From a virus, in IMG/VR virus record IMGVR_UViG_3300021085_000254, positions 1 through 21,909 of that record: 21,909 bases of DNA; one strand, given 5' to 3'. Shown piece by piece: positions 1,194 to 21,909 of this stretch (position 1 is its first letter; the number at the start of each line of letters is the position of its first letter). The notes beneath the pieces are model-generated. The model saw only the letters and a program-made list of their open reading frames with translations. It searched no databases and was not told where the DNA came from. Made by a program: the position numbers and the translations under genes.

Positions 1194-1886
1194 CTAAACG
1201 AGAGTTGGGTTCACCTGTTCCATTCGACGTGCATAAACGAGCGACGTGTTGGACTGACCAAGCGGGTTGTGGGTGGTATAGCTGGCCTCCACCAGTTTAC
1301 CCGCACGAGCTAACGTCATGCAACGACTTTGGACTTTGGTGTAGCAACCTTTCTGTGCCTTGTTCATATCCTTCAAAGCTATTTGATTGACGTTGAGGAC
1401 AGACCAAAGGACATCAACGAATGACATCGCGTCCACGTCTAGTATGCCGATGATCATGTCGTCGAGTTCAGAGTTGTCCATGTCTAGTAAAATACTAAAC
1501 ATTTGTTCTCTTATATCATGCAAGCTGGGTGTGGCAGTCACAGTTTCCACAACTGATCTCGGGGTCTGAGTTGTGACAACCTTCGTGGTCTGTGGATCTT
1601 CGTCTACTACGATGCCGTCTTCGTCGTAGTAGTCTTCGTCCTCACCTACGATGTAAGTTTCCTCATGGTTTACGTCCAGATATATGGCGATGTACTTTGC
1701 GACGTAAGATCGCTCTGGATAGTTATCTTTCATCTGTGCGTAGTATCTGTCTCCGATGGCCACGTTGGTTGCCTGTGCCATGTTGACTGATATGTAACAT
1801 GTATCTCCATCACTGGTCTGGGCGTAGGCTGATCCACTGATGGTTAAGTTTGTAATCTCAAGGACTGAAGTTGTGTGATTTGTCAT
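1194..1886 (-). CDS. Hypothetical two-domain protein, 230 aa, at the attP-distal side
   Basis: Residues about 8-72 alternate hydrophobic residues in beta-strand fashion (VLEITNLTISGSAYAQ, then CYISVNMAQATNVAIGDRYYAQM) like a small OB/cold-shock barrel. A very acidic linker follows (GEDEDYYDEDGIVVDEDP), then threonine-rich sequence. Residues about 125-230 are helical and end in a winged-helix-like stretch (GCYTKVQSRCMTLARAGKLVEASY). A regulatory or nucleic-acid-binding role is inferred only from these folds; I do not know the family. A 16-bp perfect palindrome lies 22 bases upstream of the ATG and may be its operator. It reads away from the attachment site, so after integration it would sit at the opposite end of the prophage from the integrase. 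The ribosome site is poor. Confidence 0.7.
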   Translation of the reverse strand: MTNHTTSVLEITNLTISGSAYAQTSDGDTCYISVNMAQATNVAIGDRYYAQMKDNYPERSYVAKYIAIYLDVNHEETYIVGEDEDYYDEDGIVVDEDPQTTKVVTTQTPRSVVETVTATPSLHDIREQMFSILLDMDNSELDDMIIGILDVDAMSFVDVLWSVLNVNQIALKDMNKAQKGCYTKVQSRCMTLARAGKLVEASYTTHNPLGQSNTSLVYARRMEQVNPTLV

Positions 1887-1907: not shown

Positions 1908-1923
1908 GCATCGTTAACGATGC
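1908..1923. promoter_or_regulatory. 16-bp perfect palindrome, candidate operator
   Basis: GCATCGTTAACGATGC reads the same on both strands. It lies in the leader of the 1194-1886 gene, between that gene and the attachment site. Symmetry of this length in a leader suggests a dimeric regulator binding site. The regulator is not identified; the LuxR-HTH or the winged-helix protein nearby are candidates by inference only. Confidence 0.55.
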
Positions 1924-1972
1924 AGGTGATTATTAAGCCAAGAGTTGTCACGTCTTGGGCCGCTCAATAAGC

Positions 1973-2115
1973 ACCGAAAGTTATGGTAGTTGGTATGGAA
2001 ATACCTTAGCAGGGGAGCGCCTTCGTCCACTCGGCCACGTCTCCGTGGATCGGAATAGTCGGTACGCTTCTGATCTGCAATAGGTAAACACATAAATCTT
2101 TTCATAACTTTCGGT
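1973..2115. repeat. 13-bp inverted repeat flanking the tRNA fragment (attP arm sites)
   Basis: ACCGAAAGTTATG at 1973-1985 is the exact reverse complement of CATAACTTTCGGT at 2103-2115. The two copies bracket the tRNA-Ser half at 2004-2044, 18 bases from one side and 58 from the other. Tyrosine integrases with an N-terminal arm-binding domain recognise such short repeats on either side of a core, so these are probably arm-type sites of the adjacent integrase. Confidence 0.65.
2004..2044 (-). other. attP: attP core: 5' half of tRNA-Ser(GCU)
   Basis: Read on the - strand, 2044 to 2004 is a serine tRNA from base 1 through the anticodon loop: acceptor GGAGACG, D arm GCCGAGTGGACGAAGGC, anticodon stem start CTCCC, loop CTGCTAA with anticodon GCT at 2010-2008. 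After two more G the similarity ends: the next bases (TATTTCC) cannot complete the anticodon stem, and no variable arm, T arm or CGTCTCC acceptor strand follows. It lies 100 bp beyond the integrase stop. This is best explained as the phage attachment core shared with a host tRNA-Ser gene. A non-functional tRNA relic is the alternative. Confidence 0.75.
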
Positions 2116-2143: not shown

Positions 2144-3151
2144 TTACAGGGACATCACGGCTGCTTTATGATCCTCATAGGTGGTGTTCATGTAACGCAT
2201 CACCATCTTTAGATCTGAATGCCCCAGTAAATCTGCGATTACTTTGGGCGGTATTCCGTTACGCGCAAGACGCGTAGCGAATGTGTGTCTTAGGGTGTAA
2301 GGTGACTTTCTTATTTCTAGCCTGTCAGTAACCTTACGCCAGTGATACCCAATCTGTTTGTTAGTTTCGAACGGTCGCCCGTCGATCATGAATGGGTATG
2401 CCGCAGGGGGTGGATCACTGCGCGGGATTGTTAAGAGTGCCTTGTCGTTGAGGGGCACCCGACGCTCCCTGAGTTCTCCGTCTGCACCTTTGTACGATCC
2501 GAGGACTACAGTGTTGTTACTGAAGTCTACGTTGTCATAGGTCAGACGCATCGCCTCAATAGGACGAGCACCAGTGTGGAGTAGGAAGTTGCAAAGGCGT
2601 CGGATGTCTGGATGCAAGTCAGGAAAGATTGTGTCGATCTCTTCTTGCGATAGCGTATCCGTTTTGTGTTTGCCTTCACGCGGCTTCTTTAACTTTACTG
2701 GTTCACGTAACCCGAGGGATGCAGCGAAGTTGAGTACGCCTTGGAGTTGGTTAAGGTCTCTGCGAATTGTTGAGTTCGCATTGCCACGATTGACATGCTT
2801 CTCCTCTACATATTCTTCCACGTCGTTGAGGTCGATCTTGTTGATCTGAAACTCTCCGAAGTGATTGACGAGACGCATGACGTACTCCTTGGTTGATTTG
2901 CTGCTCCCAGTATGGGGCGATTTGAGATAGCGGCGAGCGACAGATTTAAATCTGTTCTGTGCTCCGTGGATTGATTTCTGTCCGAGCTTTATAGTTCCTG
3001 CTAAAACCTTGGCTTCGTACTCAGCGCATAGTTCTTTTGCATGTACGTAGTCATTGGTTCCTAGAGAATGTCGAACGCGGAAACCTTGGAACGAGCCAAC
3101 CGCTTGATACATTTTTCCACCGCTGCGCTTCTTAACTTTGAAGAGCGGCAA
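2144..3151 (-). CDS. int: Tyrosine-family site-specific integrase, 335 aa
   Basis: It catalyses recombination between phage and host attachment sites. Residues 1-60 form a basic, beta-rich arm-binding region (MPLFKVKKRSGGKMYQ); about 70-150 is the SAM-like core-binding domain (starts RRYLKSPHTGSSKSTKEYV); 165-335 is the catalytic domain. Visible active-site residues are R196 (TGARPIEAMRL), R288 (SPYTLRHTFATRL), H311 (LLGHSDLK) and nucleophile Y320 (VMRYMNT). The first box II histidine is replaced by Y285, a variant seen in active family members. The start is TTG 3151, with a strong AAGGAGG site that overlaps the end of the upstream LuxR-HTH gene, so translation is coupled. It reads toward the attP core 100 bp downstream. 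Confidence 0.95.
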   Translation of the reverse strand: MPLFKVKKRSGGKMYQAVGSFQGFRVRHSLGTNDYVHAKELCAEYEAKVLAGTIKLGQKSIHGAQNRFKSVARRYLKSPHTGSSKSTKEYVMRLVNHFGEFQINKIDLNDVEEYVEEKHVNRGNANSTIRRDLNQLQGVLNFAASLGLREPVKLKKPREGKHKTDTLSQEEIDTIFPDLHPDIRRLCNFLLHTGARPIEAMRLTYDNVDFSNNTVVLGSYKGADGELRERRVPLNDKALLTIPRSDPPPAAYPFMIDGRPFETNKQIGYHWRKVTDRLEIRKSPYTLRHTFATRLARNGIPPKVIADLLGHSDLKMVMRYMNTTYEDHKAAVMSL

Positions 3152-3154
3152 AGT

Positions 3155-3688
3155 TTAGTCCTCCTTTCGATACAAGTTTTCATATGGGTCGGGCTTGGAA
3201 CCGTCGTAAGCTCTAGCCCAGTCGATTGGTAAGCCGCCCGAAGATCGTTGGTACTCAGTCGGGTCAACGCGGTCGAGTATGTCGTGCATTACTAAGGCAG
3301 CTTGGCCTCTAGTTTTGGTGCCGACCTTCTTACATACGGCCCGAACGTGCAGCTTAACAGTGTTCTCTGCTATATTAAGAACATCTCCTATGGCTTTGTT
3401 TGACCAACCTTCTATTAAGAATTGGGCAGTAACATGCTGCTTCGCTGTCATGGTACGAAGTAGAGACAGCTCGGCGGGTGCAACTGGGCTGGCAGTGTCC
3501 TTGATAGCTGGTGCGCTATTTGTACTTTGCAGCAGGAGATTGGTGATAATGTCGAGCTTCGCCTCAAGTCGAGCAAGTTCGAACCGAAAGTTTTGTGTGT
3601 TGTTTGACATTGTTTCATACTGATCCATGATTGATTTAAAAGGCCCAGGGGTTTCTGGACTGTCTCCTATGTAGTGGTTATGATACAT
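3155..3688 (-). CDS. LuxR/GerE-type HTH protein upstream of the integrase, 177 aa
   Basis: Residues about 80-136 (LRTMTAKQHVTAQFLIEG, then SNKAIGDVLNIAENTVKLHV) match the four-helix LuxR/GerE DNA-binding domain, including the typical NKAIGxxLxIxExTVKxHV run. Residues 30-55 form a short coiled coil, probably for dimerisation. There is no room for an autoinducer-binding or receiver domain, so it resembles a single-domain regulator. A 40-residue polar tail follows the HTH. ATG 3688 is preferred over the upstream GTG because AAAGGTG sits nine bases before it. It ends three bases before the integrase start and so is almost surely in the same transcript; a role in the lysis-lysogeny decision or integrase control is inferred. 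Confidence 0.85.
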   Translation of the reverse strand: MYHNHYIGDSPETPGPFKSIMDQYETMSNNTQNFRFELARLEAKLDIITNLLLQSTNSAPAIKDTASPVAPAELSLLRTMTAKQHVTAQFLIEGWSNKAIGDVLNIAENTVKLHVRAVCKKVGTKTRGQAALVMHDILDRVDPTEYQRSSGGLPIDWARAYDGSKPDPYENLYRKED

Positions 3689-3824
3689 CTTTGTCAACAC
3701 CTTTCGATCTGTTTAGGCACACTTCTCCTTCAAGCTACTGTTACTGCTACGTTATTATTTTTATTAAGTAGGCTATAAGATATGCACTACAAATGTATCG
3801 GTGAAAACACCAAGTGATTTGGCG

Positions 3825-8174: not shown

Positions 8175-8214
8175 CCCTCGACGCTAGGTATTAACTACGT
8201 CGAGGGTTTTTTTT
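8175..8214 (+). terminator. Intrinsic terminator after the 7.9-8.1 kb unit
   Basis: CCCTCGACG at 8175-8183 pairs with CGTCGAGGG at 8198-8206, followed by eight T. There is no T run in the opposite direction, so it serves rightward transcription only. Its T run touches the stop codon of the convergent primase-helicase gene. Confidence 0.92.
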
Positions 8215-10141
8215 ATTGAGAGTTAGCTGCCCATGACGGGGCTGATGTAGCTCTAATTTTTTCAGTCCACTCAGCTATAGTAGACACGGGGCGACCTACC
8301 CGACTTGCTATCTCTATGTCAGAGAGGGGTGGTCTCACTGCGCCAGAGGCGTCTGTCCATTCTTGAGCAAAGGTCATGGTTCTCTGTCTCGCTGTCCTTG
8401 GTGACATGATGGATACAGTGTCGTCTTCTGTCGAAGAGGTGAAGGCTATATTATATACAGGCTCGTGAACGTCTGACCACTCACGTACCTTGCCATACCG
8501 CAACTGCATCATGACATCTATACGCCTGCCCTCGGCTTCCGCAGCAACATTCATGTCCACAAATGGACTTGCGGTAATACTACCCTCGTAGATGCCTGCC
8601 TTTACGTCTGCCGTTTCCTGATCCCAGAACACCTGTGTGACCTTGATCTGGGTTTCAAGTACGGTCAACTGGTTAGAGCTACCCGCTTCACGACCTGACG
8701 TGCCGCTTTCACCTGGCTTGTTACTGTGATGCAGAAGCCATACGCACAGACCCGCGTTGCGTAGCTTTAGACATAGCTGGTTGATGTACCCCCATTGCTC
8801 GGCAGAGTTTTCTTGCAGACCTGGGAACGCTGATCGGATTGTGTCGATCACAACGTGCGTGGGTTTCGTGGCCTTGATCCACTGTTCAAAGTTCTTGATG
8901 CCAGCTTCGTTCATTAAGTTCATGTCGCGCTGATCATGGAACGGTGCCCATATCATGAAGTCATTACCCGCATCACCGAAGCTGCGCTTGGATCTGTCTA
9001 GGAACTTGGCCACGTTCGACCTACTATTCTCGAAGTCAAAGTACAAAACCCTAGACTTCTCGTTAATGTCGAATGGCCCAAACCTCTGCTGACCCGAAGA
9101 TGCCGCGTACAATACATTACGAACGAACATTGACTTGCCGTGACCAGAATATCCAAAGACCTGTATGATTGTACCTGACGTTGGCGCAATCGGGTCGATA
9201 AAGAAACTCATGTTGTCTACGTAACTTTGCAGTTCGTCGAGGTCACTTGTCGTAATGGGCTTGTACGATGGCGGCTTTTCGGGTGCCTTCGACTTGGCTG
9301 ACAGTTCTGACCCAGAGCTTTCAGTGCTCCAAGCTCGTTCGCACATCTGCCTAACCTTGCTCTCTTCAATGTGGTTTTGAAAGAACGCATCCATGAAACG
9401 GCCAGCGCCCTCTATAAGTTCATCAACTGTCTCGCCCTGCCCCGCCAAGGACGATATGTATTTATAAAGGCGATCATCTCTACCGTTGCCGCCTCCATCT
9501 GGCAGCTTCCCGATACGAGAAACAAGTTCTTCAGTGCGGTTCCAGATCGGTTGATCTACATGAATGTCTTCTAAACTCATTCCTTCTAACCGAAAGGAAT
9601 TGAAGTCTATGACGTTCGATACCTCCGCAGTGAGCTTCGGCGCTGCGTAAGTAGGGATGTCGTCGAAGTCGTTGCCATGGGCCACCCGCCATTCGTAGTT
9701 CTTACTCGGCGGCGCAAGGACATACCCCTTACTTCCGCGCAAGTCTAACCCGTCAACGCGAGGCCACTCTTTACTATTTCCATCAGACCCAACTCTATTC
9801 TTTATCCAGTCAGACCCTTTCGGGAACTCGAAGTAATAGTGCCAGCCCTTCTTGGTACGCACACTAACGGGTGTGCGCGTCAAGCCAAGATCCCTTGCTT
9901 CCTTTACAGCCCCTTCATTGTCGCAATCGACGACAACAAGACCTGTCATCTCACCAGTAAGAAGCGCAATGTTTGCGTTGGGCCACCTATCAAACCATTC
10001 GTATGCCTCTTGCTCGGTCGGCATAATGTTCTGGTCTATGTAATGGCCCCACTTTACGAGCGGCTTTTTAGTGTCTGGGCTAATCGGAATGACAGCCCAG
10101 CCTCGGTCAAGATACTCTAGCGCTGCGTCTAGTATCTCCAT
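8213..10141 (-). CDS. Bifunctional primase-polymerase / RecA-fold helicase, 642 aa
   Basis: Residues 1-150 are an archaeo-eukaryotic prim-pol domain (opening GWAVIPISPDTKKPLVKWG; D72 and D74 in VVVDCDNEG; H101 in KKGWHYYFEFP; D133 in GLDLRGSKGYVLAPPS). Residues about 300-550 are a RecA-like AAA_25 ATPase: Walker A GYSGHGKS at 330-337, Walker B THVVIDT with D433, and the WLLHHSNKPGESGTSGREAG sensor region. A helical domain lies near the C-terminus. It would prime and unwind DNA at the phage replication fork. Start ATG 10141 has a GGAGGA site seven bases upstream; the longer frame lacks one. It overlaps the Cro-like gene by 35 bases. Confidence 0.92.
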   Translation of the reverse strand: MEILDAALEYLDRGWAVIPISPDTKKPLVKWGHYIDQNIMPTEQEAYEWFDRWPNANIALLTGEMTGLVVVDCDNEGAVKEARDLGLTRTPVSVRTKKGWHYYFEFPKGSDWIKNRVGSDGNSKEWPRVDGLDLRGSKGYVLAPPSKNYEWRVAHGNDFDDIPTYAAPKLTAEVSNVIDFNSFRLEGMSLEDIHVDQPIWNRTEELVSRIGKLPDGGGNGRDDRLYKYISSLAGQGETVDELIEGAGRFMDAFFQNHIEESKVRQMCERAWSTESSGSELSAKSKAPEKPPSYKPITTSDLDELQSYVDNMSFFIDPIAPTSGTIIQVFGYSGHGKSMFVRNVLYAASSGQQRFGPFDINEKSRVLYFDFENSRSNVAKFLDRSKRSFGDAGNDFMIWAPFHDQRDMNLMNEAGIKNFEQWIKATKPTHVVIDTIRSAFPGLQENSAEQWGYINQLCLKLRNAGLCVWLLHHSNKPGESGTSGREAGSSNQLTVLETQIKVTQVFWDQETADVKAGIYEGSITASPFVDMNVAAEAEGRRIDVMMQLRYGKVREWSDVHEPVYNIAFTSSTEDDTVSIMSPRTARQRTMTFAQEWTDASGAVRPPLSDIEIASRVGRPVSTIAEWTEKIRATSAPSWAANSQ

Positions 10142-10334
10142 AGTTTCTTTCCTCCGTGAAGTATTGATCGAGGTCAAGCAATGGCCATACCTCTTTGATT
10201 TTTGACAGGTAAGTGGAGGAAACAAAGTCTCTGCGTACCCAGCCATATGGCGTGGTACGACAGATGCCTAGCGACTTAGCAACGGTGGGCGCTCCACCGA
10301 GATCGTCGATCAATCTTTGTATATCGAAGTGCAT
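10107..10334 (-). CDS. Cro/YdaS-like helix-turn-helix repressor, 75 aa
   Basis: The sequence (LIDDLGGAPTVAKSLGICRT followed by TPYGWVRRDFVSS) is a typical small Cro-type HTH with recognition helix around residues 26-35. A GAGGA site sits eleven bases before ATG 10334. The gene is divergent from the recombination operon across a 103-bp control region, and its 3' end overlaps the primase-helicase start by 35 bases. It likely represses one or both promoters in that region. The last ten residues are basic and probably disordered. Confidence 0.82.
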   Translation of the reverse strand: MHFDIQRLIDDLGGAPTVAKSLGICRTTPYGWVRRDFVSSTYLSKIKEVWPLLDLDQYFTEERNYGDTRRSARVS

Positions 10335-13135: not shown

Positions 13136-13430
13136 ACCCAGAGATCTACCGCTAGATGAAGCCAAGCGCCTAATTAACGCAGACCGAAACGAGGAGTACG
13201 GCGAGCCGTACGACAACTTCTCAGACATAGCCTCGATGATTACGGTCATACTGAGATCCATTCTGAAGGATGGCGAGCGAGTACGCGTTGAGCATGTGGC
13301 GATGATTATGATTATCGTGAAGTTGTCGCGTATGACGACATCTCCACGAAAGATGGATAGCTGGGTAGATATTGCTGGCTACGTCGGTACTGGATGGGAA
13401 GCCATCGAAATGGATAGTAAGGAGGGTTAG
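13125..13430 (+). CDS. DUF6378-like phage protein, 101 aa, GTG start
   Basis: GTG 13125 overlaps the previous gene. The pattern INADRNEEYGEPYDNFSDIA, then VEHVAMIMIIVKLSRMTTSP and DSWVDIAGYVGTG, fits the phage DUF6378 type: an N-terminal EYG/YDNF motif, a hydrophobic middle helix and a DSWxDIAGY end, often found beside phage nucleotide or DNA metabolism genes. The biochemical role is not established to my knowledge. Its stop overlaps the stop of the convergent giant gene by three bases. Confidence 0.78.
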   Translation: MASKPRDLPLDEAKRLINADRNEEYGEPYDNFSDIASMITVILRSILKDGERVRVEHVAMIMIIVKLSRMTTSPRKMDSWVDIAGYVGTGWEAIEMDSKEG

Positions 13431-13438
13431 TACCCTCC
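13421..13438. terminator. Hairpin between convergent genes, candidate weak bidirectional terminator
   Basis: GGAGGG at 13421-13426 pairs with CCCTCC at 13433-13438 around a TTAGTA loop that holds both stop codons. No T run follows on either side, so termination, if any, would be weak; pausing or mRNA end protection is also possible. Confidence 0.35.
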
Positions 13439-16400
13439 TCCATATCCTCCACCATATCCAGAAGTTTTCTTTCTACCACCCGCTCCGCGTTCTCCTGCGA
13501 TGCCATCGACTATGGCTTCCTTAGCCCAAGATACGCCGCCGAGAACTGGAACTCGTCCGACCACTTCGCGAGTAGCCGCACGCCGCATTCCATTAGCATC
13601 CGTACCATCAAGCCAAGAGCGACCGCCTTGAAGAACTGTCTGGGCGTCATTGAATAGCCCGACTGTCGGGCCACCGATGGTTTCCAGAGTGCGCTGCGCT
13701 CCATACGCACCGTTATCAGTCTGTGATCCGATGTCGTACATTAGCTCTCCAATCAGACCCATGCCGCCCAGAGCTACCATGCCATCAAAGTACCAGCCCA
13801 TAAGCATGTCCATGTCTTCGTTATCTTCGAAGGCTCCTGTTATTGTCTCAGACAACTTGCGTTCTCTCAGCTCGAACTCTCTGTTGTCCTCGCCACCACG
13901 TCCTTGAACAATGTCTTTCGCACCGACAGCCACACCACCCATTGCAGGGCCAGCGACCAGCAGAGCAGCCAACGGCCCAAGTCGATTATCACTTGCGCCT
14001 ACGAACGCCTTGGCAAAGTTCGCGCCACGCTCCGCAACAGTATCCCCACGGAATGCCTCACCCGCTACATTATTGACCAGTCGGGTCATCATGAGTGGGT
14101 ACGACTTCAACTGGAACGCAATCGCACCAAGAGGTGTCTGCGCCCAGAGGGGTATGTCGTTAGGATTAGGCGTGAATATCATCTGGTTAGTCAGTTTTAT
14201 TGTTGACGACGACAGCTTGTCAGCCAATGGGTGTTCGTTTCCTGAGAAACGGCTTTCCATAATCAAGTCCATATCAAGTGACTGATCGTCTACGAACTCA
14301 GCTAACCCCTCCTCGCGAAGTATGCGGCGAGCAATGCGACCAGCTCGTGATGTTGGACGGGTCTTTAAGATCCTGTGCTGGGCCTTCAAGTGTTCGTACG
14401 AAACGGCACCCGCTACATCTCTCATCATGTCCGTCCAAGGAGTAAGTAATGTAGAATTAAAGAACCCAGTCATAAACTGCGTACTGTCTACACCATGCGC
14501 AACTGTTAGACGTTGATGCACTGCGTTCTCGGTTGCCGCACCGATGTTGCGGATCATGTCACGATATTCTGGATCAGTAGCAAACTTACGAAGTGACTTA
14601 GTGTACGCACCGATGTCTCCTGTGCGTATCAACGGAAGAACCAAGTCGCCCAGGGAGGTAAGTGTGGTGAAGCCCAGGAGCGTTACCGCATTTACACCAC
14701 GCAACCACTTCGAGGCACTGACCATAGAGAATGTACCATGTACCCCATCAACAGGACGCCGCATCGCAGAGTTCATGAACCCTTGTGCGTGGCGCAAGTT
14801 CTGGTTCGATGTGACCTTTTGCAATCCTTCAGTGTCAGATAGCGCACTTGCAACAGCCTTCGCCCTCTTGCGGAAGTTGTTGCGTAGCATGACAGCATCT
14901 GGATTGTCAGAGAGCTTTTCACCCAAGACATCCATGATATTTGCTTCTATTTCTGCTGCGCTTGACCCATCCTGCGCCATCTTGATCAGCTCTTCTGCCT
15001 TTCTCTCGGCTGCGAACTTCTCTTTAATAGGTGCATAGAAGTAGTTGTTGTCAAAGATACTCTCCTTGACCCCATGATCCGTACCGCCAGAGCGTACATA
15101 GTTGGCGTTTATGATCTTGTTAGATGACAGCAGGCCGCCGATGACTTTAACGGCATTCATAGGCTGCGCTACGATTGACAAGTAGTCGTGATACCCGTGG
15201 GCACCTACGCCGAACTCTTCAGTTATGTCGATGCGGTGTTCGAGGTTGTCACTATACTTTGTCATGGCAACAAGGACATCGTTTTCTAGGAACACAGCCA
15301 AGCTGTCAGGAGTATCGAAGTCAGCAAACTCTGGGAACTCATCCAGCCTGATCAAGCGATTGTAATCTAGGTGATCAGACTGGTCGCCTGCCTTGTTAGA
15401 CATACGCTTAAAGTTCTGGGCGGGGTTGGAATACACACCGTCCTCATCAAGCAATCTCTGTACGACGCGTCGTGCTGAAGTCTCAGCCACAGCCGCATCT
15501 CCCGCACCATTCCGTTCAGCAAGGAAGTATTTCTTTAAGCGCCGTACGAACTCTTCTGGGTCGGCTTCAATCAAGTCCTTGCGCCAGACTTGCGGGAAGT
15601 AGTTCCGTTTAATTTCTCCGACGATAGCGCCTGATGCCTTTAGCCTACCTGTAGCTTCGTCCAAGTAACCGCGTACGTGATTGTAAACCTCTGCTTCTTG
15701 CGGGATCAGAGACGATGCTTTGTTCTCATCTCTAAGCGCAGATATAATACGCATGTGGCTGGCTGGCTGTGTCATCCGACGTTTCGGATTGATGCCCATT
15801 GCGCCCATTGCACTTTCCGCCATTAGCTGCGGGCCAGTACGCCAGTAGTTTACGAGCTTATTGCTGCTATCAGGAAGCTGCTTCAGTAACTTTGTAAGGG
15901 GAATAACGAACTTACCCATGCGTGCATTCGTACGTTCGAAGTGCCCGCCACTTCCGTCCTTCGGCTCGAAGAAGTTGGCCAGGGTTTTTAACCCAGAGCG
16001 ATCCATAATCTTAGAGTTCGTACGGATTGGGTTGAATATGTTAGACTTACGTATTTCGGATGCTGCTTCTGATGGCATACCCCGACCGCGTGCTACTGAA
16101 ATCATAGCCTCAAGTGTACGAGCTGGAACGCCTGCTTGCTCAAGTTCTGTAGCTGCTTGGTTCAGTACGCGAACGGGCGAGCCGACTGTAGCTGCTTCCA
16201 TTATACGCCCATTTATCGAGTGCGTACTTGAGTTCTCACCAATTATTGTTGTCGCGTCATCAAAGACATCACTCCGTATGGAGCGCACATCCCTATTAGA
16301 CAGCATGATCTTTTCACCGTTGGCTTCGATGCTTGTAAAGCCAGCATCTTTCATCACCCGCTTAAACTTGCGGAGACCACCAATGACACCAATTATCTCA

Positions 16401-19400
16401 GCGGCCATATTTTCCGCTGTGTAGATGCCACGTATCGCTGACAGTTCGCCTGCTTCTCTGGGCTGACCGCTTGCTTTAAGGTGACTGATGATAGCTTTGA
16501 CCATTGGGCTACGAACGGTCATTTCGTTCGTAAACAAGGCTGGCTCCAAGTCCCGTATAAAGACTGGGTTGGTCTCAGTTCTAAGGTTTACACCCATGCC
16601 ACTAAGCTCTTCGCTTAGTACGTCGTCCAATGCGTATAGCTTGTCGATGTATTGTCCTGATGCAGATCCGTCTATACGAGCATTGTTTATCTTGGAGCGC
16701 GTCATCTCAAGAGCGTCAACGATCTCCATTACGTCCTCTCGCTTTTCAGCAGAGGCAGAGCTAATTATCTCATCGCGTCTGTTCTGAACCGTGTTGAGAG
16801 GCTGACGAGTTACATAAGTACCCCGACCAAAGATCCCATTGGCCTGACCGTTGGTAAAGTTTGGTACTATGTTGTCGCCTGTAAACTCACGAACGGCCTC
16901 ATATCCAGCCATTGAGTAGTCTTCCATGATCTCATTAGCGTGATCAATCGCATACTCTGCTGGGACACTATCGCCATATCGTGCGCGTGGACTTCCTTTT
17001 CTTTGACTGGCAGAACCAATCATATCTCCGTACGCAGTGATCATAGAGAAGCGTTCTCGTGCTGGAAGGCTGCTTATAAGTCCGTTTAGTACGTAGCCAG
17101 TTGCTTCCATGATCTCATCGTCCAACTCCTCGATGAAGTCGTCAAAGAAATCCATGTCCTCGCCGTCCATGATATTCTGAATAGCCTTGATCTGTGGGTT
17201 ATTAGAAGTGAGGTCTGTTGCCTCAACTAATACGTCGGCAAAAAGACGCTCTTGTGGAATGCCGAGTACAGAGCTTGCTTTGGAAAATACGTTCCGAGTG
17301 GAGTGGCTAACTGCATGACTTGAGTACAGAGCCTCGCCTACGAAAGACACTGCACCAGATATGTCATCACCACGTACGAGGTTCGTACCAACCGTACGAA
17401 CGACCTTACGGTACGAACCGTACGAAGCTGCATCAACAGACTGTGGCAGGCTCTCCACACCCAGTCGAGCAAGGCGGGCCGTAATGGTACGGGACACTAG
17501 CTCGGTCTGATTGTCTCGATGAGTAATCCCACGTAGGTACTCACGCATTTTAACTGTAGCATTGGGCGGAATACCATTTTCGAAAGCTGTACCCGCGTCT
17601 TGGGCCTGCTCAACAATGATGGCTTTCTCGACTGCGTTGCTTTCGCGGCTACCTTTTTTAGCCGCGCGATTAGCTGCACGCGTCCGAATAAGGTTCTTCA
17701 TTATATTCATTGCCTGTTCTGGCGTTGCGCCAAGACCTTTTATTGTCTCTCCGTCTGCGGAGAAAGCTAGGCCCAGAGCAAGTTCATCTTTCTGAACGGC
17801 GTTGGCTTTTCCTTTGTTGCCACCACCCTTGACCTTCTCTTTGGACTGCCAAGTATTATAGATGGCCTGCTCTTCTTCGGTCAGTACAATCTCTTTTACG
17901 TCTGTCTTCACTAGGTGGCGGACGCGATTTGCCAACTTGCCGCCAAACTCGGTCGGCTTCCCGTCAACGTCAATTTGTCGGCGGTACTCAGCCAAGGCTT
18001 CTGCGAGGGAATACTTGCTTGTATCTCCACCCTTCGTGCCCTTTACAACCTGACCCTTGAACTCCTCCTTATTGGACTTGCCCTGTTTGCTCATGATTGC
18101 TTCTAATGACTTCTTAAAGTTACGCCGCTGACGGTTAGTTGCCGCCTTCATTTTATCTTTACTGGCGATCTTCTCCATCATTTTAGGTGTAAGGCCGACC
18201 CGTTCGCGCGTGGCTAGAAGCTCATCAGAAATCTTAGCTTCTGGAATGTCGCCATACTCGACATTCATATAGGCTTCGTTGATCTCTTCTAATTTTCCCT
18301 TGGCGTATTTGCCTAGACCACCATCCCATAAGGCGATCATATCCTTCGCCATATCGGGATGATAGCTGGAGCCACCCATTGCAGCCATATTCTCCCAGAA
18401 GTTACCATCGTCGGGTATCTGGTCGTTCACAGTATCTACAGCATAATCAACAGAACCAGTAAGCTCGTTGATCTGTTTAGCAAACCCTCTAAGTTTTGTA
18501 TGACCCTTGATGGCTTGGAATGCGCCAGTGTAGCCCTCGATCAACGCCCGATCAGTTGCCGTCGCACGGCCCTCGCGGGACGCCAAGATAGAGCGGTCAC
18601 GCTTTGTCATCGCTATGCCCTGGAATGTAGCTGCCAATCGACGTGAAGCGAGGCCCATCTTTTCAATGTCGTGCATTTCTGGGAAGCCGTCTCGTGCTGC
18701 CTCAAAATCCTGTACGGCCCTGCTCACTTGGTCGTATCTTATTCGTAGAGATTGACCCAGCTTTGTCTGCGCTTCTACGGGCATCGTATAGCGTACGCGA
18801 AGAGCCTCGTCTTTGCTCGCGATCATCTTCTCGAAGATAGGCTCAAGTTCTGGATCAACGATGTGACGGTTTGTAATGTGCTTCCAAAGTTTCTGTATTA
18901 GCTTTGTCGCTTTTTCAAAGAAGCTCATCGGCGCTATTGGTGCATCAAACTTATGGTGCGCCCAAAGTGCAAACTGGTTTGCGAAAAGTTCACCAGGGTT
19001 TTGCTTTGAGTTCGTGAGGCCAGCGACATCAGCGCCGTCACGCACCATCGGTGAGTACGCATCAAGTAACGTGCCTTCGACGCGATCAGATACGAAGCCA
19101 CCGTCAAAACGACCCTTTTGATCGTAGTATTTGCTGGCTGACTGCCAGAACTCTAACTTCATTTCTGGTGTCATTAGGTTCATGTACGCCCAATGACCAA
19201 GTTCGTGCATCACAACGAACGAAGATGAGATGCCAGTCTTCGTACCGTCTTTATCCACGTTCTTAGAGTTCAAGAATATGTTGTTGAAGTCTGGCCCCAC
19301 GTCTCCATCTGTAGATCCTGGCCCAATGCTTCTCATTTCCTGATACGAAAGTGGTTTGGATGCGTACAATCCTGCAACGTCATCATCTATTAACCCTGAA

Positions 19401-21909
19401 AGGTTGTACTCGCTGATTGGCTTAAACGCAGGCGCGGAGTTTTGCGGGGCAATCGCACGAAACATTCTCTCGATGTGAGCGAATGTCGAATTGTTCATTT
19501 GGCCTACAGTTTTACGAAGCTCGACAATAGACTTTTCAATGTCTTGGCCAGGCAACCTAAAGCCCAATGGCGCTTCTTTGTTAAGTACGTGAAGATACGC
19601 AGTAATCGCATCGAGGCGGTTTCCGAAAGGAACCTCTGTAGAGCTGTTAGGAATATCTAAACGGAAATTTGCGTTCTCTATGTCTTTTAGAATATCGACC
19701 ATATCCGCAAGTGACGGCTTAGATACCATGAACTCCTCAAGGGTATCAGCGTAATTAGTGCTACTCACTAATTTAGCACCGATATAAAGGCGACGTGCTA
19801 TCGACTTGCCTTCGGGAGTGGACGCCAATCTCTTAATATCCACGACAGTATTCATCGCGTCGGCGTAATCGAGCGGTGCTTCTGGTAATTTCTCCTGTAC
19901 CTTCTTCGGTGCAGGCTGTTCACCAATATCATTGGCTTGATCTAAGGGTTCAAAGAGGCTCTTGAGTTTGTCGCGATCTGTTGCGCTGGTTATTTTCTTT
20001 CCATCAACTTCGCGCGGGACATAACCGATATTATAATTCTCGACCGTCTGCTTACCCAGAAGACGCGCAAGTGAGCCGCCATTATCGACTTGGTACGGGG
20101 CCATTACCCGAGGTTTTAATTCTAGTGTCTTGGGCAAGATCATTAGGATCTTGTCGCCACGGGTAAGTGGGACATCAGGTAATTCCTGCACATCCGTTAC
20201 ATCGTTGCCCTGACCATCAACAACCTTCTGCTGCTCTGGCCCGTCTACTTGAAGACCGCCCTTACGCGCTCGTGCTTTAAGGGTTTCCTTTTCGTCTACG
20301 AATTTATCGAGGTCTCCGTCCTTGCCAAAGTCATCCTCGGCTTTGTCGATCAGTTTCTCAAACTCTTCGCGTACGCTGATGCCCTTGATGTTATCATCAA
20401 CAATTTTGTACTGCTCTGGGCGCTTAACACCCATGCGGTCAAGAGCCTGCGCTTCTGTTGGGTACGTATAGAAACGAGAGCTTCCTGTCTTTTCATTGTG
20501 TATAAGCACACCGAAGACTTCTTGGCCTTCTTCAGCAGGAACCCTTGAACCTTGAATTGCTTGCCCAGCGCGCGCGGGGAAAGGATAAACGCCTTTTAAC
20601 TTACCCATAGTGAGGTCAGTTTCTGCACGCGCCCTTGCTACTTCACGAGTTTCGTTGCGCCGCTGAAAAATATCAGCGCCTTCAGTAATTGTACGACCAT
20701 CACTGGTTTCGTACCCAGGTTTGAATAAGTTGTTCAGCTTGCTTGAGGTTCTGGTCTCGCCAGTAGCAACGTCTGTGTAGTTTCTAAATACCCTGCCAGC
20801 GTACTTGTCGAACGCAAGAGCATCGCCAACCTTACGAGTTGCCTCGGCTACCCGTTTAGGTGTGTACTTTAAGTCGTCATTTCGTGCAGCTACAGACATG
20901 CCGCTTTTAAATTTAGCGACCTCTTGCTGACTTTTTAGAGATGTGTACGTCGCGCCAACGTCACCTTCCAACTGGTCGATACGGCGACGTATAGCCGCTG
21001 ACATATCTTCCGACATCGGCGTGCCTTCGTCTGACGCTGCCTTCAAGACCGCACTAAAGTGGTTGCGTACAGATTTAGCACGAAGTGTTTTGTAGTAGCC
21101 AGACGCCTCAACGATTGCAAAGAACGCGTCGTCGGCGTCTTCGGAGACTTCAGCCAACTCAGGTTCATTGGCTTTCTTGGCATCCGCCGCTAAAGCATCT
21201 TCAGTTTCAGCTAAGTTTGGATCTGCAAAAGAAGCATCGTCTTTTCGAACGGGCGTGCCGAATATTTCGTTTACGAGCTTTTTCGTATATACACTTTGTG
21301 TCTTACCGTTGTAAGTTCTTCCTTCTCTAGCGGCTATGTGAATATTTATTGCCTGTCGCCCTGCGGCAGTTATCTTACCATCTTTCATATGGGCTTCATC
21401 GGCTGCAAGGATTTTACCAATTTCAGCTTTTGTAAGGATCTTGTTATTTGTGCCGTTCTTTTTGTTCGCTGCTTTAAGTTTGTTACCTTTAATGTGAGCG
21501 TCAAAAGATTTATCTAATTGTGCCGTCCAGCCATCTTTACCAGCAGTCGTTTTATACTTAGCCCCTTTTACATCTGGTATCTCTGGGACGGTTGGTATTT
21601 TTGGTGCAGCTTCGGCTGCTGCATCTGGCGCTTCGGGAGTAGTGTCAGTAGTGTCCGTAGTGTCACCCGCGTCTGTGGCAGTAGTGTCGTCCGCTTCGGC
21701 ATTAGCATCGGCACCCGCTTCATCAGTATCGGCTTTCGTACCGCCAGTAGCGTTAGCTTCATTTTCTTTTTTAGCCTTCTTGGCTGTTTCTTTGGCTTTT
21801 TTAACTTCTTCTTCTGTCGGCTTCTGTGCTTCAGCGGCACGATTGGCGTTGATCTCTGCGTTCGAAAGGCGATTAACCTGATCTATGTCTGTAGAGGAGA
21901 GAAGAGTTT
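13427..21909 (-). CDS. Giant virion-type polyvalent protein, N-terminus beyond the window
   Basis: The frame ends at TAA 13429-13427 and is open to the window edge: 2826 codons are visible, with no start codon between 21388 and 21909, so the first Met at 21388 is not the start. Residue numbers here count from that Met. The 173 residues before it are an Ala/Glu/Lys then Thr/Asp-rich linker (repeats of DTT). A zincin metalloprotease-like domain has HELGH at 728-732 and E800 in NPGELFANQF as likely third ligand. Around 1490-1715 a GIFGRGTYVT and DVRSIRSDVFD pattern resembles ADP-ribosyltransferase-like domains. Near 1850 is a NYFPQVWRK motif. The C-terminus has hydrophobic helices (GPLAALLVAGPAMGG, MVALGGMGLIGELM) and ends GYGGGYGGGY. 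Proteins of this build are known as polyvalent or DNA-ejection proteins carried in the virion. Host-cell action after injection is inferred. Confidence 0.85.
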   Translation of the reverse strand, partial: TLLSSTDIDQVNRLSNAEINANRAAEAQKPTEEEVKKAKETAKKAKKENEANATGGTKADTDEAGADANAEADDTTATDAGDTTDTTDTTPEAPDAAAEAAPKIPTVPEIPDVKGAKYKTTAGKDGWTAQLDKSFDAHIKGNKLKAANKKNGTNNKILTKAEIGKILAADEAHMKDGKITAAGRQAINIHIAAREGRTYNGKTQSVYTKKLVNEIFGTPVRKDDASFADPNLAETEDALAADAKKANEPELAEVSEDADDAFFAIVEASGYYKTLRAKSVRNHFSAVLKAASDEGTPMSEDMSAAIRRRIDQLEGDVGATYTSLKSQQEVAKFKSGMSVAARNDDLKYTPKRVAEATRKVGDALAFDKYAGRVFRNYTDVATGETRTSSKLNNLFKPGYETSDGRTITEGADIFQRRNETREVARARAETDLTMGKLKGVYPFPARAGQAIQGSRVPAEEGQEVFGVLIHNEKTGSSRFYTYPTEAQALDRMGVKRPEQYKIVDDNIKGISVREEFEKLIDKAEDDFGKDGDLDKFVDEKETLKARARKGGLQVDGPEQQKVVDGQGNDVTDVQELPDVPLTRGDKILMILPKTLELKPRVMAPYQVDNGGSLARLLGKQTVENYNIGYVPREVDGKKITSATDRDKLKSLFEPLDQANDIGEQPAPKKVQEKLPEAPLDYADAMNTVVDIKRLASTPEGKSIARRLYIGAKLVSSTNYADTLEEFMVSKPSLADMVDILKDIENANFRLDIPNSSTEVPFGNRLDAITAYLHVLNKEAPLGFRLPGQDIEKSIVELRKTVGQMNNSTFAHIERMFRAIAPQNSAPAFKPISEYNLSGLIDDDVAGLYASKPLSYQEMRSIGPGSTDGDVGPDFNNIFLNSKNVDKDGTKTGISSSFVVMHELGHWAYMNLMTPEMKLEFWQSASKYYDQKGRFDGGFVSDRVEGTLLDAYSPMVRDGADVAGLTNSKQNPGELFANQFALWAHHKFDAPIAPMSFFEKATKLIQKLWKHITNRHIVDPELEPIFEKMIASKDEALRVRYTMPVEAQTKLGQSLRIRYDQVSRAVQDFEAARDGFPEMHDIEKMGLASRRLAATFQGIAMTKRDRSILASREGRATATDRALIEGYTGAFQAIKGHTKLRGFAKQINELTGSVDYAVDTVNDQIPDDGNFWENMAAMGGSSYHPDMAKDMIALWDGGLGKYAKGKLEEINEAYMNVEYGDIPEAKISDELLATRERVGLTPKMMEKIASKDKMKAATNRQRRNFKKSLEAIMSKQGKSNKEEFKGQVVKGTKGGDTSKYSLAEALAEYRRQIDVDGKPTEFGGKLANRVRHLVKTDVKEIVLTEEEQAIYNTWQSKEKVKGGGNKGKANAVQKDELALGLAFSADGETIKGLGATPEQAMNIMKNLIRTRAANRAAKKGSRESNAVEKAIIVEQAQDAGTAFENGIPPNATVKMREYLRGITHRDNQTELVSRTITARLARLGVESLPQSVDAASYGSYRKVVRTVGTNLVRGDDISGAVSFVGEALYSSHAVSHSTRNVFSKASSVLGIPQERLFADVLVEATDLTSNNPQIKAIQNIMDGEDMDFFDDFIEELDDEIMEATGYVLNGLISSLPARERFSMITAYGDMIGSASQRKGSPRARYGDSVPAEYAIDHANEIMEDYSMAGYEAVREFTGDNIVPNFTNGQANGIFGRGTYVTRQPLNTVQNRRDEIISSASAEKREDVMEIVDALEMTRSKINNARIDGSASGQYIDKLYALDDVLSEELSGMGVNLRTETNPVFIRDLEPALFTNEMTVRSPMVKAIISHLKASGQPREAGELSAIRGIYTAENMAAEIIGVIGGLRKFKRVMKDAGFTSIEANGEKIMLSNRDVRSIRSDVFDDATTIIGENSSTHSINGRIMEAATVGSPVRVLNQAATELEQAGVPARTLEAMISVARGRGMPSEAASEIRKSNIFNPIRTNSKIMDRSGLKTLANFFEPKDGSGGHFERTNARMGKFVIPLTKLLKQLPDSSNKLVNYWRTGPQLMAESAMGAMGINPKRRMTQPASHMRIISALRDENKASSLIPQEAEVYNHVRGYLDEATGRLKASGAIVGEIKRNYFPQVWRKDLIEADPEEFVRRLKKYFLAERNGAGDAAVAETSARRVVQRLLDEDGVYSNPAQNFKRMSNKAGDQSDHLDYNRLIRLDEFPEFADFDTPDSLAVFLENDVLVAMTKYSDNLEHRIDITEEFGVGAHGYHDYLSIVAQPMNAVKVIGGLLSSNKIINANYVRSGGTDHGVKESIFDNNYFYAPIKEKFAAERKAEELIKMAQDGSSAAEIEANIMDVLGEKLSDNPDAVMLRNNFRKRAKAVASALSDTEGLQKVTSNQNLRHAQGFMNSAMRRPVDGVHGTFSMVSASKWLRGVNAVTLLGFTTLTSLGDLVLPLIRTGDIGAYTKSLRKFATDPEYRDMIRNIGAATENAVHQRLTVAHGVDSTQFMTGFFNSTLLTPWTDMMRDVAGAVSYEHLKAQHRILKTRPTSRAGRIARRILREEGLAEFVDDQSLDMDLIMESRFSGNEHPLADKLSSSTIKLTNQMIFTPNPNDIPLWAQTPLGAIAFQLKSYPLMMTRLVNNVAGEAFRGDTVAERGANFAKAFVGASDNRLGPLAALLVAGPAMGGVAVGAKDIVQGRGGEDNREFELRERKLSETITGAFEDNEDMDMLMGWYFDGMVALGGMGLIGELMYDIGSQTDNGAYGAQRTLETIGGPTVGLFNDAQTVLQGGRSWLDGTDANGMRRAATREVVGRVPVLGGVSWAKEAIVDGIAGERGAGGRKKTSGYGGGYGGGY

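Follow-up and report, generated by a model that had tools for sequence, protein, structure and literature searches.

Introduction

A common explanation for the 3′ half of a tRNA gene in phages is that the host promoter is thereby kept. Here we describe the phage attachment site (attP) of a virus which carries the 5′ half of tRNA-Ser(GCU) next to a tyrosine integrase gene. The source is IMG/VR record IMGVR_UViG_3300021085_000254, a 21.9-kb virus record that is probably a fragment; its whole stretch of 21,909 nucleotides is called the window below. The Islander survey contains 3,760 islands with a 3′ fragment of the tDNA and 159 with a 5′ fragment (of 3,919; PMC4383910). According to a review (PMC8371274), the rebuilt bacterial tRNA retains its original promoter with very few exceptions, and it is the 5′ half that serves the pTN3-like integrases of archaea. 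The 5′-half polarity is a known minority class and, since it is already present in Islander and among the archaeal integrases, this phage adds a new, well-documented case to it and not a new class.

Several described systems resemble the locus in part. The 5′-fragment islands of Islander (Williams classes) also combine a tyrosine integrase with an anticodon-loop site and an element that brings the 5′ part of the tRNA (PMC4383910), whereas here we deal with a marine Rhodobacterales phage lineage, a measurable and conserved predicted replacement promoter in attP, and as target tRNA-Ser(GCU), with tRNA-Arg(CCU) in its place in relatives. With the pTN3-like integrases of Thermococcales the locus shares a common stretch of 41 bp and a rebuilt tRNA that would be cut off from its original promoter (PMC8371274; PMC5495485). 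However, the attP of pTN3 lies inside the integrase gene, which is split on integration (PMC5495485), whereas here it lies downstream of an intact integrase gene, 100 bp past the stop codon, so that the integrase is not of the suicidal pTN3-like type, and a dedicated bacterial-type promoter adjoins the tRNA half. Canonical 3′-half tRNA phages, for example many mycobacteriophages, likewise have an anticodon-loop tDNA target and rebuild the tRNA at one junction (PMC10865867), but they bring the 3′ half and retain the host promoter. In tRNA-dependent lysogeny (PMC10865867) the phage has a tRNA of its own, and none was found in the window. Finally, Roseobacter phage CRP-810 is also temperate, infects marine Rhodobacterales, has a primase with 39.5% identity and inserts midway along a tRNA gene (PMC11288001); its integrase, however, is only 28% identical, and its 13-bp core lies in tRNA-Thr, a tRNA that the phage also encodes.

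Structure of the attachment site

Very probably, we are dealing with the attP of a temperate marine phage of Rhodobacterales whose integration target is the anticodon loop of tRNA-Ser(GCU), a single-copy gene; the polarity would be 5′, and the tRNA would be rebuilt under a phage promoter. Direct observation covers the parts of attP and how they are conserved, the match to a promoter and, in one single-cell genome, a junction at which the tRNA is restored. The features of the site are as follows.

2103–2115, minus strand: inverted arm-type site, ACCGAAAGTTATG as the minus strand reads, on the integrase side; the pair occurs in relatives with lineage-specific changes
2075–2080, minus strand: predicted −35 element, TTGCAG
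2052–2057, minus strand: predicted −10 element, TATTCC, after a 17-nt spacer and 7 nt ahead of tRNA base 1, as in host tRNA-Ser genes
2004–2044, minus strand: 5′ half of tRNA-Ser(GCU), the attP identity segment, with tRNA base 1 at 2044
2006–2012, minus strand: anticodon loop CTGCTAA with the anticodon GCT at 2008–2010; putative 7-bp overlap region for strand exchange
1973–1985, plus strand: inverted arm-type site ACCGAAAGTTATG, on the opposite side of the core

An earlier reading of the window, made from its sequence only, had proposed a 41-bp match to a serine tRNA running from 2044 to 2004 and ending abruptly. This was borne out: the minus strand is GGAGACGTGGCCGAGTGGACGAAGGCGCTCCCCTGCTAAGG, identical to bases 1–41 of a Rhodobacterales tRNA-Ser(GCU), and the homology ends 2 bases beyond the anticodon loop. 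The same 41 bp, together with the next three tRNA bases, are matched exactly by the tRNA-Ser(GCU) genes of 2 of the 395 Rhodobacterales genomes sampled, and most hosts differ from the phage half only in having TC instead of AC in the D-loop. Neither ARAGORN nor Rfam found a tRNA in the window, and therefore the tRNA gene here is truly truncated: attP holds its 5′ part and the 3′ part is missing.

Where does the crossover take place? Because the identity between attP and the bacterial attachment site (attB) stops just past CTGCTAA, the crossover probably lies in or beside the anticodon loop, and by analogy with anticodon-loop integrases (PMC8371274) strand exchange may occur within the 7-bp overlap that the loop would provide. 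The sequence-only reading had placed it in or near the loop, which agrees with the end of the homology.

The half-tRNA is flanked by an exact 13-bp inverted repeat, which also proved correct as first described and lies above chance expectation in shuffled sequences. A 12-mer within the repeat has two mismatch-free occurrences in the window, which are the two arms, compared with 0.05 matches in shuffles even with one mismatch allowed. Close relatives keep both inverted arms, and lineage-specific changes are mostly shared by the two. Such paired changes are as expected of sites bound by the integrase, and we infer that it binds these arms.

An addition to the sequence-only reading, which overlooked it, is a sigma70-like promoter in attP, TTGCAG-N17-TATTCC-N7, followed directly by the tRNA half. 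The layout upstream of tRNA-Ser(GCU) in hosts is TTGnnn, 17 nt, TAnAnn and 7 nt to the tRNA, with the same spacing. A plain consensus promoter score was dropped, being too weak per site, and a host-derived matrix was used instead. With a matrix from 27 tRNA-Ser upstream regions the attP site ranked first among the 43,730 positions of the window and also first in eight relatives. As 10 of these 27 regions are from IMG/VR contigs, with a possible phage origin, the matrix was rebuilt from 19 genome-derived genes; the attP site then ranked third in the window and from 1 to 32 across the nine closest relatives. For 12 of 13 distinct attPs the promoter score exceeded that of shuffled sequences at p < 0.01. 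Since attP carries a promoter of host tRNA spacing, integration would swap the promoter of the tRNA along with its 5′ half.

Conservation among relatives

The integrase retrieved 26 loci from IMG/VR, and the half-tRNA-Ser(GCU) is kept in about 20 related phage contigs. At loci with 71–100% integrase identity the tRNA-Ser(GCU) 5′ half has the same place and direction although the flanking DNA is different, and the inverted arms are retained with it. In these loci the half ends at CTGCTAAG or 1–2 bases further, apart from one contig, which stops inside CTGCTAAG. The same 5′ half is also found next to more distant integrases, those of L051 (46% identical), L020 (59% to L051) and L027 and L030 (about 44%). 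Three other loci (L050, L052 and L053; integrases 44–51%) are arranged alike but with the 5′ half from tRNA-Arg(CCU), a tRNA that ARAGORN identified in host genomes; judged by these sequences, distant relatives have switched the target tRNA and kept the polarity. L049, whose integrase is 57% identical, lacks a tRNA half, and a strong hairpin stands in its place (L049 7005–7300); the search for its target gave nothing convincing.

The abrupt stop inside the tRNA is also what one would expect of host DNA captured in one imprecise excision, and the upstream promoter could have been captured with it, in which case the half-tRNA would be a passive relic without a function in attP. We regard this as highly improbable, since the half has hardly changed even where integrase identity falls to about 44% and the surroundings have diverged, distant relatives have the 5′ half of another tRNA in its stead, and a genomic junction lies at precisely this point. 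Moreover, the segment upstream of the half is identical to the nearest genome-derived host upstream region at just 27 of 60 positions, which argues that the promoter elements were kept by selection and are not a recent capture.

When IMG/VR was searched strictly for either half of tRNA-Ser(GCU), 16 five-prime-only cases were found, close relatives of this phage included, versus 18 three-prime-only cases; 5′ fragments look far less rare at this gene than in Islander, the search patterns not being symmetric. We also observed a promoter-like sequence with the tRNA-Ser(GCU) 5′ half beside unrelated integrases in two contigs (L009 548–588, minus strand; L026 1585–1625, plus strand), where the integrase is downstream on the opposite strand with phage genes around. 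Two contigs of metagenome 3300046449 (L005 and L025) have a common upstream promoter and tRNA 5′ half; one runs into a full tRNA and the other diverges by an integrase, which makes them a possible attB/attL-like pair of another element (attL being one of the two prophage junctions). L021 was considered as a second prophage with both ends and rejected, as it has a full tRNA only and no displaced fragment.

The integrated form

One integrase scan across 84,980 genome species yielded one close relative, L055, a single-cell Ascidiaceihabitans genome whose integrase is 71% identical; the remaining matches had about 30% identity or less and were not used. This relative, the only one from a genome, lies in tRNA-Ser(GCU) and not at another locus. 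The order in L055 is DNA of a LuxR-type gene, the integrase (318–1328), an arm site, the promoter, a complete tRNA-Ser(GCU) (1427–1516) and a non-phage flank. Two relatives, G006 and G009, match L055 from the tRNA to about 70 bp downstream (89% and 81%), and their upstream DNA differs and has a host promoter. By this comparison, the join in L055 is the tRNA-restoring junction predicted by 5′ polarity, with phage promoter, phage 5′ half and host 3′ half, and in this one genome the tRNA is intact where element DNA lies upstream. The opposite polarity proposed in the sequence-only reading is supported by the conserved attP and by this junction, where phage DNA runs into a whole tRNA-Ser(GCU) followed by host flank. 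Of the two prophage junctions named there as a check, the tRNA-restoring one could be read in L055.

The proposed sequence of events is as follows. In an attP laid out as integrase arm site, promoter, tRNA 5′ half to the anticodon loop and second arm site, recombination would link the phage promoter and phage 5′ half to the host 3′ half. Lysogens would thus still express an intact tRNA-Ser(GCU), now transcribed from the phage promoter; at the other prophage end, attL, one would expect the displaced 5′ half behind the promoter of the host. In all 39 family genomes with a match, L055 included, tRNA-Ser(GCU) is single copy, and therefore the rebuilt tRNA of L055 is probably the only copy of the cell, the assembly being incomplete.

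In another scenario the host tRNA would be lost on integration and its function taken over by a complete tRNA encoded elsewhere in the phage, as is the case for Fionnbharth and may be for CRP-810. CRP-810 itself, the best named relative by primase, gives this some support with its tRNA-Thr target and tRNA-Thr gene. Against it, the target is rebuilt in L055, and no complete tRNA was found in the window, a fragment of the genome, or in the retrieved parts of relatives. Tested in this way, a tRNA-dependent lysogeny has very little probability. Single-cell genomes can hold chimeras, and as just one junction was observed, it might be an artefact of amplification or assembly. This too is very unlikely, because attP/attB homology predicts a join at exactly this point and the phage surroundings (LuxR-type gene, integrase, arm, promoter) are in the expected order.

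Some observations nevertheless weigh against integration of this kind. The integrase is carried by L055 only, with no others among 397 family genomes. Within the L055 genome attL was not found and tRNA-Ser(GCU) occurs at a single place; homologues of the primase and of the 230-aa gene described below are absent from the assembly, and the rest of the prophage was not found. Two in-frame stops interrupt the LuxR-type gene of L055. Because of these stops, and as no other tested phage gene is in the assembly, the L055 element may be a decayed prophage or remnant. The sequence comparison places the crossover in the region of the loop and not at one base, promoter activity at attP is predicted from sequence features, and the most divergent relatives have weak promoter scores.

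Neighbouring genes

The half-tRNA is surrounded by the following genes and structures.

3155–3700, minus strand: LuxR-type (GerE) helix-turn-helix regulator upstream of the integrase (PF00196, 2.4e-10); homologous DNA lies beside the L055 junction
2144–3151, minus strand: tyrosine integrase of 335 aa, reading towards the tRNA half (PF00589, 8e-21; phrog_1, 1.5e-53; family alignment)
1938–1958, minus strand: hairpin 1, with covarying pairs, in the leader that separates the half-tRNA from the gene after it
1908–1923, minus strand: hairpin 2, GCATCGTTAACGATGC, in the same leader
1194–1886, minus strand: gene of a conserved 230-aa protein, just past attP and in the same direction as the tRNA half; conserved in relatives

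The integrase gene had been placed 100 bp away, and its stop at 2144 is indeed 100 bp from tRNA base 1. R196, K221, R288, H311 and Y320 are invariant across 14 aligned sequences, as required of a tyrosine recombinase, and in box II Y285 occupies a position that is commonly H. The 230-aa gene starts about 115–120 nt beyond the half-tRNA, behind the two hairpins (1908–1958, minus strand). These show compensatory changes, with 75% of cells paired versus 31–43% when slid, and have no clear terminator T-run. An AlphaFold model of the protein (pLDDT 68) suggests, with low confidence, an N-terminal OB-fold and a C-terminal winged helix; against PDB it gave weak matches only (IF1, the Rho RNA-binding domain and PadR; best E about 0.02).

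Elsewhere in the window, a primase/polymerase gene (8213–10246, minus strand) makes CRP-810 the closest named phage by primase. An open reading frame of 2,653 aa (13427–21388, minus strand) takes up more than one third of the record and has no PHROGs match.

Could the tRNA-type promoter, which faces through the half into this covarying leader and conserved gene, have another task? The 5′-half RNA or the leader might act as a regulatory or decoy RNA, or the promoter might drive the 230-aa gene, the attP role being secondary. We think this unlikely: the inverted arms and the genomic junction require an attP role regardless, and expression is only predicted, although the two roles are compatible. 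Equally doubtful, though worth stating, is a reading of attP as a module for the two-way exchange of promoters. While the phage is free, its tRNA promoter would read through the half and structured leader into the 230-aa regulator-like gene; in the integrated form, the host tRNA-Ser promoter would drive that gene and the phage promoter the essential host tRNA. If this were true, growth-linked tRNA transcription of the host would control a prophage gene.

Implications

Integration at tRNA-Ser(GCU) with 5′ polarity, as we read it, means that this lineage makes the opposite choice in full: it brings the 5′ half together with a promoter of host geometry, and once integrated it would itself drive a single-copy tRNA of the lysogen. 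Fragments with the 5′ half recur at tRNA-Ser(GCU) among unrelated integrases, and the cost and benefit of 5′ polarity under selection become directly testable.
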